Shown piece by piece: positions 3,855 through 9,377 of a stretch of 47,131 nucleotides of DNA. Source of the stretch: Gammaproteobacteria bacterium. Its GTDB lineage: Bacteria > Pseudomonadota > Gammaproteobacteria > Steroidobacterales > PWYM01. Under the pieces are notes generated by a model. The model was not told where the DNA came from, searched no databases, and worked only from the letters and a program-made list of their open reading frames with translations. Made by a program: the position numbers and the translations under genes. The DNA lies in contig JAFIFN010000013.1 in the NCBI GenBank assembly GCA_020832005.1, forward strand, positions 1 through 47,131. The letters run 5' to 3'. Position 1 is the stretch's first letter. Every line of letters begins with the position of its first letter.

Positions 3855-4313
3855 TCACTCCCGAACGAAGCGTCGCACCTGCTCATCATAGTGGCCGTGT
3901 GCGCCCCGCAAGACCGTCTCGTCACGCCATGCGGGCGCAATGGAGAACCATTCGTCCAGGATGTACAGATGCGCCTCACCAATGCTCACGTCGCCAAACA
4001 CTCCAGCTTTCTGGTAGGGGTCCCCGTCCAGAAACGCTTGCAGTGATTCCCTGGATTCAAAGGCCATCCACGCCCCAACCCCGACGACATTCGCATCTTC
4101 GTCAAGAATTCGAAAGGTTGAAACGTCTCGGCCATTTTGCAGGGTGTGCTCCCGATGCGCGTTACGCAGAGTCTCTCGTACCGCCTCGCTGCCCTCCACA
4201 TAGAGTCGCTGAACCAGATAGGTGCGAAAGTACTCGTCACCTGCCTTCACCTCTACAGGCATCAGGAGTGATACGAGCAGGAGACCAAACACTGCTGCCA
4301 TGGTGTGGTTCAT
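3855..4313 (-). CDS. exported YCII-like domain protein
   Basis: Signal peptide MNHTMAAVFGLLLVSLLMPVEVKA; DGDPYQKAGVFGDVSI...EWFSIAPAW; paralogous to the adjacent gene. Confidence 0.65.
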   Translation of the reverse strand: MNHTMAAVFGLLLVSLLMPVEVKAGDEYFRTYLVQRLYVEGSEAVRETLRNAHREHTLQNGRDVSTFRILDEDANVVGVGAWMAFESRESLQAFLDGDPYQKAGVFGDVSIGEAHLYILDEWFSIAPAWRDETVLRGAHGHYDEQVRRFVRE

Positions 4314-4813
4314 CGCGGTGCCCTCACGGTAGTGTCCGGTACCGGCGCAAGACCATCTCGCTCGTAGCGCCTGTGTTTGATCGCAAGGCCTTCCCCGCGT
4401 ATCCATGCAGGCTCAATGCGAAAATAACTGTCTATGAAATCGACCTCGACGGGAATAATGCGAATCTCTTTGTAAAATCCGGCTTTCGTGTAAGGGTCCT
4501 CGTAGACGTAGTATTCCACGCCCTCGCGCGTGTCGAATGCGTTCAATGCCACGACACCGATGGCCTTGCCGTTTTCATCATGCAGGTTCGTCGAAACGGC
4601 GGTCTGACTATGTCCCTCAATGTGCAGGTTGTGAGCGCGCTGTTCCTCGGGCGTCACTCCACTGACTCTTGCCATCAGATCATCCGACCAGATTCTATAA
4701 ACAAGATACATCTTGTAGTGCATCTCAGCGGCTTCATTGCGTCCCCCTTGCTGGGTGGCACAGCCCACGCAAAGAAGGCACGCGACGGCTGTCACGATTG
4801 CCAATCTCTTCAT
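4310..4813 (-). CDS. YCII-like domain lipoprotein
   Basis: Lipobox-like MKRLAIVTAVACLLCVGCATQ; EDPYTKAGFYKEIRIIPVEVDFIDSYFRIEPAW aligns with the neighbouring paralogue; 4-bp overlaps on both sides. Confidence 0.65.
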   Translation of the reverse strand: MKRLAIVTAVACLLCVGCATQQGGRNEAAEMHYKMYLVYRIWSDDLMARVSGVTPEEQRAHNLHIEGHSQTAVSTNLHDENGKAIGVVALNAFDTREGVEYYVYEDPYTKAGFYKEIRIIPVEVDFIDSYFRIEPAWIRGEGLAIKHRRYERDGLAPVPDTTVRAPR

Positions 4814-6051
4814 TCGGCCCCCTCCGTCGGGTTTTGTGTTGTGGTGTCCAGTCCGGCTACAACCGTATTGACAACGAAAGCATCGTCGAAGGATGCCCAC
4901 GGATTCGTCAGTCGTCCTACGCGAAATATTGCCAGTCGTCGAGAAGGCACAACATAGATCCTGCCGTTGCCGCTTGCCTCCATAAAGTAAGTGTCTTCAG
5001 CGAGGAAAGGCCCGGAGAGAGGCCGCGCCGAACCTGTTCGTGTACTTTGGATGCGCTTACCAGTAAAGGGTTCGACGAGCCAGACACTGAATCCGGCACT
5101 CGGGTTATGCGAGACCGGCGTACGTACGGTCTGCAGCCACTCTGGTGCGACAACCTGTCTGCCGTCCCAAACGCCGTTGTTTGCGAGCATCAGGCCGAAG
5201 CGCAGCCAGCTTGACACGCTACCAATAAAGCAGCAGATCGCCCGGGCATCACCACGCGCACGGTCAAGGGCCACGAATCCTGTTTCGTTACCAAGCGGCA
5301 TCCATAGATACTCGGACACCAGCTCGGCATAACGCTTGTTGGTCGCGCGCGTGAGCACGAAATATAGCGCTTGCGCATTGATGTGATTGAAGTCGAACGC
5401 TGAGCCCGGTGTGTGGTCCACAGTACGCTGCAATGTCAACGCGTGGAGGTTGCGCCCGATGAACAGATCCAGTACCGGATTGTAGGGTTTGCGATTGAAG
5501 CTTTCCTGCGCCAGCCCGGACTGATTGGCCAGGAGATCGTGCACGGTGATGCTGCGGCGTGCGTCCTGCTGCCACTCTTCCAGGTATCTGCCAGCACGCT
5601 CATCGAGGCTCTCTATCGCACCGGACTCCAGCGCATATCCAAACGCGATTGACAAAAGACCCTTGTGGATCGAGAACGAATCAACCAACGTCTCAGCATC
5701 GAGACCATCGGCGAAGTGGCTGTAGACGATGGAGTCACCGACGCCCACGACCAGCGCAAAGCTGTCCGTGTCGGTGGCGAATTCGTCGAGCGCCTGAACG
5801 GCCGCTTCATCCAGCAGACCGTGCAACTCAGGCAACGCGACGGGCACACCGGCACCCTGAACAGGCTCCAAGGGAGAATATTTGACGGTATCCAGTACAC
5901 GATCCGGATCCGATATCGAGAACGCCATGTAATTGCGCGCGTAGGGCGCAATGAAAATTGCCATAGTGGCAGCCACCAAGGCCGCCACTGCAGCAATCCA
6001 CCACGGTTTCACAAGCGTCATACTGGTCCTGGAAATCGACATCGTGCGCAT
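4810..6051 (-). CDS. membrane-anchored beta-lactamase-family (class C-like) serine hydrolase
   Basis: N-terminal TM segment; DSFSIHKGLLS (SxxK), SITVHDLLANQSGL, later conserved blocks; start uncertain (6051, 6042 or 6021). Confidence 0.8.
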   Translation of the reverse strand: MRTMSISRTSMTLVKPWWIAAVAALVAATMAIFIAPYARNYMAFSISDPDRVLDTVKYSPLEPVQGAGVPVALPELHGLLDEAAVQALDEFATDTDSFALVVGVGDSIVYSHFADGLDAETLVDSFSIHKGLLSIAFGYALESGAIESLDERAGRYLEEWQQDARRSITVHDLLANQSGLAQESFNRKPYNPVLDLFIGRNLHALTLQRTVDHTPGSAFDFNHINAQALYFVLTRATNKRYAELVSEYLWMPLGNETGFVALDRARGDARAICCFIGSVSSWLRFGLMLANNGVWDGRQVVAPEWLQTVRTPVSHNPSAGFSVWLVEPFTGKRIQSTRTGSARPLSGPFLAEDTYFMEASGNGRIYVVPSRRLAIFRVGRLTNPWASFDDAFVVNTVVAGLDTTTQNPTEGAE

Positions 6052-6307: not shown

Positions 6308-7876
6308 GTGAGCGCCACGCCTGCACACCTCGCCAGGGACGCAACCGAAGCACTGGTACGTATTGTCGGCTCGGATCATGTCGTGACCGATCCAACCGAG
6401 CGCGCCGCGTTGTCCAACGACATCTTCTTCTGGGAAGATGCCCTGCCGGCCGACCTGGTCGTACAGCCAGCCACCACCGGCCAGGTTGCCGAGGTCGTAC
6501 GGATCGTCGCCCGTCACGGGCTTTCGCTGTACACCCGCGGTGGCGGCATGTCCTACACCAAGGGCTTTGTGCCCACCGCCGCCGGCACGGTGCTGCTGGA
6601 CATGCGCCGCCTCGATCAGGTACACGAGATCAATGCCAGTGACCGCTATATCGTCGTCGGCGCCGGTGCCACCTGGCAGTCCGTGAGCGAGGCGCTAAAG
6701 CCTCACGGTCTCAAGGTGGCGTTCGGGGCGCCGTTTTCAGGTGTGTATTCGACCGTCGGCGGTGCCCTGTCCCAGGGGGTGCCCTCAGGCAGCGCCGGCG
6801 TACTGGGTCTCGAGGTCGTGCGCGCTGATGGGTCGGTGCTGCGAACCGGATCATGGGGACGCAAGTCTTCGCATGGTCACGCAGCGCCCTTCTTTCGCGA
6901 ATATGGCCCAGACCTGACCGGCGTGTTCCTCGGTGATACCGGTGCCTTTGGCATCAAGACAGCCGCGGCCTTGCAGCTCACGCAAAAGTTGCCCGCCGCG
7001 GCCCACGCGTCGTTCGCCTTCGAAAGCTACGAGGAGATGGCCGCCTGCATGATCGCGCTGGGTCCGCACGACTTCATCACGCGTCGCGTCGGACTCGATC
7101 CCTTCAAGAGCCAGAACTCCGTGAAGGTCGGCTTCAAGGAAGCGCTGAAGACGCTGGGCGACGTATCGACGTCAGGCCCGACGCTGCTGTCGGGACTCAA
7201 GGATTCGATGAAAATGGCCACCGGGGGCAGCAACTTCATGGGGGGTGTGAAGTGGTCGCTGCACCTGTCGACCGAAGCCATCAACGATGCCGTGGCCGAG
7301 GCGCAGATCGACGTTGTGCGCAACATCTGCCTGCGCCATGGGCGCGAGATCGCGAATTTCCTGCCGCGGGCGATGGATGCACGTGGCTACTCGGTGCGGG
7401 GATTTCTCGGCAGGCAGGGTCAGCGCTGGGTGCCCACCAATTCGATCTGGCCCTTGTCGCGCGCAGTGGAGATCGCCACCGCGGTGCAGGCGTTCTTCGA
7501 CGCACGCCGGGCGGAGATGGACAGACTCGGGTTCCAGGAGTCCTACATGAGCGGCTACGGGCCCGGTTACTTCCTGTGCGAACCGAGCTTCTACTGGCAC
7601 GACGAGGTCAGCGAGCTGCACCTGCGGCACCTGGGCGCTGATGAGGCGCAGCAGTTTCGCCAATTAAAGCCCAATCCGGAGGCCCGTGCATTTGCCATGA
7701 CGCTGCGCCGCGAGCTGGCGCAGTTCTTTTTCGACATGGGTGCGGTGCATGTGCAGATCGCGCGTTTCTATCGATACCAGGATTCGCTGGACGGGGGCAG
7801 TTCGCGTCTGCTGGGCGAGATGAAGGGCTTGCTGGATGCCGACGGCCGGCTCAATCCGGGCAATCTCGGCGTATAG
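6308..7876 (+). CDS. FAD-binding oxidoreductase / FAD-linked oxidase (GlcD/VAO type)
   Basis: GTG start; LYTRGGGMSYTKGFVPTAAGTVLLDMRRLDQVHEI, IVVGAGATWQSVSEAL, GLLDADGRLNPGNLGV. Confidence 0.88.
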   Translation: MSATPAHLARDATEALVRIVGSDHVVTDPTERAALSNDIFFWEDALPADLVVQPATTGQVAEVVRIVARHGLSLYTRGGGMSYTKGFVPTAAGTVLLDMRRLDQVHEINASDRYIVVGAGATWQSVSEALKPHGLKVAFGAPFSGVYSTVGGALSQGVPSGSAGVLGLEVVRADGSVLRTGSWGRKSSHGHAAPFFREYGPDLTGVFLGDTGAFGIKTAAALQLTQKLPAAAHASFAFESYEEMAACMIALGPHDFITRRVGLDPFKSQNSVKVGFKEALKTLGDVSTSGPTLLSGLKDSMKMATGGSNFMGGVKWSLHLSTEAINDAVAEAQIDVVRNICLRHGREIANFLPRAMDARGYSVRGFLGRQGQRWVPTNSIWPLSRAVEIATAVQAFFDARRAEMDRLGFQESYMSGYGPGYFLCEPSFYWHDEVSELHLRHLGADEAQQFRQLKPNPEARAFAMTLRRELAQFFFDMGAVHVQIARFYRYQDSLDGGSSRLLGEMKGLLDADGRLNPGNLGV

Positions 7877-7985: not shown

Positions 7986-9377
7986 TTAGGCCGATGGACT
8001 ACCCGACGCAGGCGTTTTTGCGCTAGCTTCGACTGCAAGCATCCTGGCTCTAAATGGCTTTAAACCGCTCCAAATAACGATCATGGCGAATACAAGTAAA
8101 GCAGGACAAACGACAGCCAACGAATATCTCAGCATTGCAGGGTCCGCGAAAACATAGTCTGTGACCAACGCAATGGAAGTGGGCCCTACGCCCTGCCCCA
8201 CCAAATTCGCAGATAACAAGAAAAGCGCGACAATTTGTGCCCTGGCCTGATTAGGAACGATCATTGGGAGCGCTGCGGGGCCGGCACCAAAAGGCATACT
8301 AAGCAAAAAGGTGATTATTGCCAGCGCCCCCAGTGCCACAAGGTGATTATCAACGAGCGCAAATATAACGATGAGCGGAGCGGCTAATCCTGCGCCAATG
8401 ATTCCGACCCTCAAATTGGAGTCCCTGACCCCACGTAAATAAAGAAAGTCTGATAACCAGCCGCCCGACAACACCCCCAGAGACCCGAAAACTACAAAAT
8501 AGAGGCCATAGATATAACCAATATCTGAAATAGGGAACTCGAAGGTTCTTACAAAATAGGTTGGCACCCAAGCGCCGAATCCAAAAGTAACCATCGCGAT
8601 TATAGAAAATCCGACAATCACACTGCCAACTGAACGAGCGTTCCCTTTAAGGAAAGCTCCTACCTCTTTCACTGGAAGTGCGCCTTCAGGTTTCCGGAGA
8701 CCAGACGCTGCACCAGCTGCATCAACAGCGTTTGTCTGACGGGGTGGCTCACGGACCGTCAGCCAAATCAATGCAGCCAATATAAATCCGGGTACGGAAA
8801 CAATCACAAAGGCCAGTTGCCAAGGATACATTGTACCGATTAAAGGCATTTCAATTTCGCCCAACTCGGTAACCAGGCCAACAACAGCTGCGCCGATCAA
8901 TAAGGCGACACCAGAGCCAATGAAACCTGAGCCTGTGAAAACACTTATGGCCCTCGTAACCATGCGACGCGGAAAATAGTCGCTTATCATCGAAAAGGCG
9001 GAAGGTGTTAACGAGGCCTCACCGGCACCCACCATTGCACGCGCCATAAAGAGCGTAAGGTAAGTTCTCGCAAGGCCGCAAAGAACAGTCGCCATAGACC
9101 AGAAGACCATGCCAATGGCGATAACTTTTTTACGGCTACGCGCATCGGCAAGTCGACCTATGGGAACAAGCATAACGCTGTAGAACAGTGCGAACGCCAG
9201 GCCTTGCAGAAGACTTATCTGAGTATCCGTTACACCGAGATCAAGGCGGATCGGCTCCACCAGCAAGTTTATGATCATCCGGTCAAGGTAAGCATTGATG
9301 TTGGATAGCGATAAAATGGCGACCACATACCATGCGTACGCATTCGACCTAAAAGAAAAGCTATCCCCTGCATTCAC
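7986..9377 (-). CDS. MFS transporter
   Basis: Twelve-TM-like hydrophobic pattern, GRLADARSRKKVIAIG loop motif; more AT-rich than its neighbours. Confidence 0.9.
   Translation of the reverse strand: MNAGDSFSFRSNAYAWYVVAILSLSNINAYLDRMIINLLVEPIRLDLGVTDTQISLLQGLAFALFYSVMLVPIGRLADARSRKKVIAIGMVFWSMATVLCGLARTYLTLFMARAMVGAGEASLTPSAFSMISDYFPRRMVTRAISVFTGSGFIGSGVALLIGAAVVGLVTELGEIEMPLIGTMYPWQLAFVIVSVPGFILAALIWLTVREPPRQTNAVDAAGAASGLRKPEGALPVKEVGAFLKGNARSVGSVIVGFSIIAMVTFGFGAWVPTYFVRTFEFPISDIGYIYGLYFVVFGSLGVLSGGWLSDFLYLRGVRDSNLRVGIIGAGLAAPLIVIFALVDNHLVALGALAIITFLLSMPFGAGPAALPMIVPNQARAQIVALFLLSANLVGQGVGPTSIALVTDYVFADPAMLRYSLAVVCPALLVFAMIVIWSGLKPFRARMLAVEASAKTPASGSPSA

Follow-up and report, generated by a model that had tools for sequence, protein, structure and literature searches.

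The analysed window, a stretch of 47,131 nucleotides, carries three genes on the minus strand, all with open reading frames. The first encodes a membrane-anchored SxxK serine hydrolase of the beta-lactamase/class C family (4810..6051; 413 aa). It is followed by two putatively exported YciI-fold proteins: paralogue A (4310..4813; 167 aa), which carries a lipobox-like CVGC, and paralogue B (3855..4313; 152 aa), which has a signal-peptide-like N-terminus ending in VKA. An ATGA joins the hydrolase stop to the paralogue A start (4810..4813, minus strand), and a second one joins the paralogue A stop to the paralogue B start (4310..4313, minus strand). These 4-bp overlaps at both junctions bear out the original prediction of a three-gene arrangement and support translational coupling of the trio. 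A promoter scan found no promoter. Divergent from the trio lies a gene for a VAO/PCMH-type FAD oxidase (6308..7876, plus strand; 522 aa, no signal; PF01565, 95.5 bits), with a gene for an MFS transporter after it (7986..9377, minus strand; 463 aa; PF07690 at 148.5 bits and PF03137 at 25.5).

The hydrolase scored 64.6 bits against PF00144 (cut-off 27) and contains a hydrophobic segment at residues 17-37. Its S127-I-H-K130 motif aligns with the Ser and Lys of 44 of 45 homologues, the remaining one being gapped there. It had been described as a TM-anchored beta-lactamase-family hydrolase with SIHK, and these features agree with that description. The position usually held by the Tyr of the YxN general-base motif is occupied by Phe221; in the homologues this column contains Tyr (30), His (12) or Trp (2). 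Hydrolases of the PF00144 type are common in the order, with up to 10 paralogues per genome. We also observed a Cys-Cys pair at residues 273-274 that is kept in nearly all homologues.

Paralogues A and B share 29% identity over 111 aa (E 2e-16), confirming that the two small proteins are related to each other. Against the Pfam YCII family (PF03795) they scored 16.3 and 19.2 bits, under the cut-off of 24, and NCBIfam YciI-like models matched them at E 1.8e-5 and 2.1e-6, below the models' own cut-offs. We built structure models of both proteins with 47 aligned YciI-type sequences as input. The cores were predicted with confidence (approximately residues 31-110 of B and 31-120 of A; pLDDT mostly 88-98), and the tails were poor. 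For both models, the best matches among solved structures were TftG (4lbp, 4lbh) and HI0828 (1mwq), with E values from 2.3e-6 to 2.9e-5, followed by other small barrels at about 1e-3. The models support a ferredoxin-like alpha/beta (dimeric alpha-beta barrel) fold for A and B, although this support is not fully independent and is not proof, since the input alignment itself contained YciI proteins. A fold outside the YCII/dimeric alpha-beta barrel group had been named beforehand as evidence against the prediction; the models instead lie closest to YciI structures.

We then compared the active-site positions of the pair with those of the family. YCII proteins have a conserved His-Asp pair, with an Arg and a Ser proposed to form an oxyanion hole (PMC4850264). 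The comparison set comprised 47 rows (44 ordinary YciI proteins, A, B and a relative from genome G741), in which the Asp, His, Arg and Ser columns were matched to the published residues by alignment only. The invariant His was kept in all 47 rows (His53 of B, His61 of A). The Asp column, located where the first strand ends, holds Asp in 43 of the 44 ordinary proteins and Ser in the other, whereas it is aromatic in the clade formed by the remaining three: Tyr38 in B, Trp in A and Phe in the G741 relative. Similarly, 43 of the 44 ordinary proteins have Ser or Gly in the Ser/Gly column, where all three clade members have Val (Val79 in B). The Arg, present in all 44, is kept within the clade solely in B, and neither A, B nor the G741 protein has both of the residues proposed for the oxyanion hole. 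Judged from these alignments, A and B are YciI proteins by fold, minus most of the proposed YCII active site. The label "YCII-like" stands for the fold, with TftG and HI0828 as the best matches, and falls short at the Pfam cut-off and the active site. Because most of that site is missing, it is unsafe to regard the pair as YCII enzymes relocated to the periplasm, and with Asp and Ser lost the two proteins may be non-catalytic.

Both paralogues have hydrophobic N-termini, with best 11-residue hydropathy means of 2.96 and 2.81. The original prediction had seen a lipobox in A and a cleavable-looking signal peptide in B. The export-type character of the N-termini held up; the finer assignments are less clear. 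The CVGC of A, with Cys at -3 and Ala at +2, does not match a PROSITE-style lipobox pattern, and the n-region of B contains no Lys or Arg. Since both signals depart from the norm in these ways, we regard lipidation and cleavage as no more than plausible. An export-like N-terminus occurred in 1 of the 44 ordinary YciI proteins sampled, in line with the expectation that exported YciI proteins are unusual. This exception comes from the window's own genome (G000:C21, L110:14260-14697); it scored 51.3 bits, over the Pfam cut-off, and belongs to a different branch from the window pair. A cytoplasmic location with the domain at the N-terminus is a usual, though not strictly defining, YCII trait, and the hydrophobic N-termini of A and B do not fit it.

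To place the trio among related genomes, we searched 97 relatives (including four congeners) and overlapping sets from the class (369 genomes), the order (396), the family of G741 (200) and the phylum (399). The trio was absent from all of these other genomes, approximately 1,160 distinct ones, congeners included. The locus had been proposed as an envelope operon, and the lack of co-occurrence of the trio in related genomes, named in advance as counting against that proposal, was what the neighbourhood check returned; a conserved envelope operon was rejected on this distribution. GC3 was 0.61-0.65 in the trio versus 0.796 ± 0.031 in 22 other window genes. As the trio is absent from the congeners and its GC3 lies far below that of the other window genes, it looks acquired, which is the simplest reading. 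The FAD oxidase has a normal GC3 (0.79). The MFS gene (GC3 0.50 amid genes near 0.8) is likely a recent arrival. Symporter and DUF4212 genes lay together in 5 of 5 genomes tried; the other window genes did not lie beside them there, so an empty insertion site was not definable.

A phage or plasmid origin was considered and rejected: the viral contigs searched contained no relatives, and plasmids gave single ordinary YciI matches only. A motif scan of 84,980 genomes, which requires near-exact peptide motifs and would miss the G741 protein, returned five loci, all ordinary YciI proteins of about 100 aa. The 47-domain tree united A and B with the G741 protein in a separate clade (support 100/98) with long branches. 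Within it, A grouped with the G741 protein (support 95/82; 44% identity), which is the closest and sole close relative, single-copy, cytoplasmic and without a signal peptide. A recent tandem duplication is not supported, with a long-branch caveat, since A is closer to the G741 protein than to B. Because that single-copy, signal-less protein stands beside A, the pair did not arise by a fresh duplication; either the window lineage gained export or G741 lost it. Near the G741 gene lie a GPH-type transporter gene and genes for a methyltransferase and a CN_hydrolase, and a TonB-receptor-like ORF follows.

In G005, the gene for the closest relative of the window oxidase (54%) overlaps one for a methyltransferase that shares 43% identity with the G741 methyltransferase; as the window's genome contains 20 or more copies of this methyltransferase family, the link is weakly specific. 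FAD oxidases of the family often adjoin such a methyltransferase, as at L132:7393-10256 (G005:C116) and in other genomes. Outside the window, 3 of 16 YciI loci in the order adjoin a FAD oxidase of the same family (G018, G551 and G000:C63), and none of 47 further YciI-bearing loci, scanned likewise and some of them overlapping, did so. At G000:C63 the oxidase may have been inserted beside the YciI gene, as G004 has related neighbours without the oxidase. The YciI and oxidase genes of G018 and G551 are accompanied by genes for a 220-aa protein (no Pfam match at the cut-off used) and a CN_hydrolase; this recurring four-gene set spans L111:1465-4094 in G551 and L135:8328-10891 in G018. Several more genomes of the order also have relatives of the 220-aa protein near YciI genes. 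Besides the window, G072 and a single-genus cluster that looks orthologous (G059, G067, G085) had a hydrolase and a FAD oxidase within 10 kb of each other, and from the place lists we judged this linkage not clearly above chance. Since a VAO/PCMH-type oxidase and an MFS transporter adjoin the trio and other YciI genes in the order lie beside such oxidases, the setting looks degradative and not envelope-related. Our literature search found nothing joining YCII, signal peptide, beta-lactamase and operon.

Our preferred reading, held tentatively and at a little under even confidence, is that the trio was acquired and serves a small-molecule degradation locus as a periplasmic processing module. 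What we infer here goes beyond gene structure, fold and context. The periplasmic substrate cleaved by the tethered hydrolase would be an ester, a lactone or an amide. A and B, which most probably form an alpha-beta barrel as homo- or heterodimers, would bind the hydrolase product and isomerise it, eliminate from it or protect it via the retained His and the aromatic residue replacing Asp. The MFS protein would then import the product, and the cytoplasmic FAD oxidase would oxidise it. Within this scheme the FAD oxidase is a probable pathway partner and the MFS protein a possible importer. Several observations weigh against the degradation module: the link between the hydrolase and the YciI pair depends on the operon structure of one assembly, the oxidase has a normal GC3 unlike the trio and may have arrived separately, and the general-base Tyr position of the hydrolase is Phe. 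The possibly non-catalytic state of the pair, the chance-level proximity of hydrolases and FAD oxidases elsewhere and the weak specificity of the methyltransferase link count against it as well. More specifically, a heterodimeric A/B enzyme, with His kept and Asp replaced by an aromatic, might act directly on the product of the tethered hydrolase in the periplasm. We consider this doubtful; if true, it would be the periplasmic arm of degradation chemistry, so far undescribed for the YciI fold.

Given the lost Asp and Ser, the main rival is a non-catalytic role, in which the YciI pair would be a heterodimeric periplasmic partner that binds the hydrolase or its ligand and tunes or senses its activity. 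Loss of these residues from both proteins while the fold is kept would fit this role, as would the coupling of two diverged copies to one hydrolase. However, the cytoplasmic G741 relative keeps the His, the DPY-x-x-AG motif and the pocket aromatic with no such hydrolase beside it, which suggests a function of its own, and we consider the non-catalytic role unlikely, if still a serious contender. The trio could also belong to a segment of recently acquired cargo whose genes share no settled role, with the trio lying next to the FAD oxidase incidentally. The low GC3 of the trio and the MFS gene beside a normal oxidase, together with the single occurrence, would be consistent with such cargo, but the frames are intact, the ATGA couplings are exact and the YciI-oxidase adjacency recurs in other genomes; we place this, too, among the less likely explanations. 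Least convincing is an envelope module, comprising a DD-peptidase- or esterase-like hydrolase and two accessory envelope proteins that help to maintain wall or lipids: the TM anchor, the SxxK motif and the lipobox-like and signal sequences would suit it, but it is made improbable by the lack of conservation in the genomes searched, the acquired composition, the oxidase and transporter neighbours and the hydrolase's weak matches, far under the cut-offs, to D-aminopeptidase and AmpH models.

The trio is a rare, apparently acquired variant of known folds. YciI proteins are widespread and mostly without known function, and TftG, a dehydrochlorinase and the one enzyme among them described in the literature consulted, relies on a His/Asp dyad (PMC7641849). 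A clade with an exported-looking pair, in which the fold and His are kept and Asp is replaced by an aromatic residue, offers a natural way to probe the capabilities of the fold, and it warns against naming such genes YCII enzymes on similarity alone. In addition, the recurring YciI-FAD oxidase neighbourhood provides a testable lead to substrates.

Compared with known systems, A and B share the alpha/beta core, the invariant His and the DPY-KAG motif with YCII proteins (PF03795), HI0828 and the 5-chlorohydroxyhydroquinone dehydrochlorinase TftG. They differ in their export-type N-termini, a C-terminal F-I-PAW extension, scores below the Pfam cut-off and the replacement of the dyad Asp by Tyr or Trp (Phe in the G741 relative) and of Ser by Val. 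The muconolactone isomerase-like ClcF and other small dimeric alpha-beta barrels have a related fold and gave weaker matches (3znu, 3zo7; E about 3e-3 to 6e-3); unlike the exported-looking A and B, ClcF-type enzymes are cytoplasmic, and they belong to another sequence family. ClcF and other small enzymes of this barrel type are auxiliary degradative enzymes. The window hydrolase shares the PF00144 match and SxxK motif with class C beta-lactamase-related serine hydrolases (8rlj; 6-aminohexanoate-dimer hydrolase), whereas its TM anchor, its Phe in place of the majority Tyr and its coupling to YciI-fold genes set it apart. The window oxidase has the FAD-binding domain of VAO/PCMH flavoprotein oxidases, its solved relatives including p-cresol methylhydroxylase and vanillyl-alcohol/eugenol oxidase; because the likeness covers mainly this N-terminal domain, their substrates are not transferable to it. 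The role proposed for A and B would resemble that of the auxiliary small-barrel enzymes of aromatic degradation, such as TftG and ClcF/muconolactone isomerase, but outside the cytoplasm.
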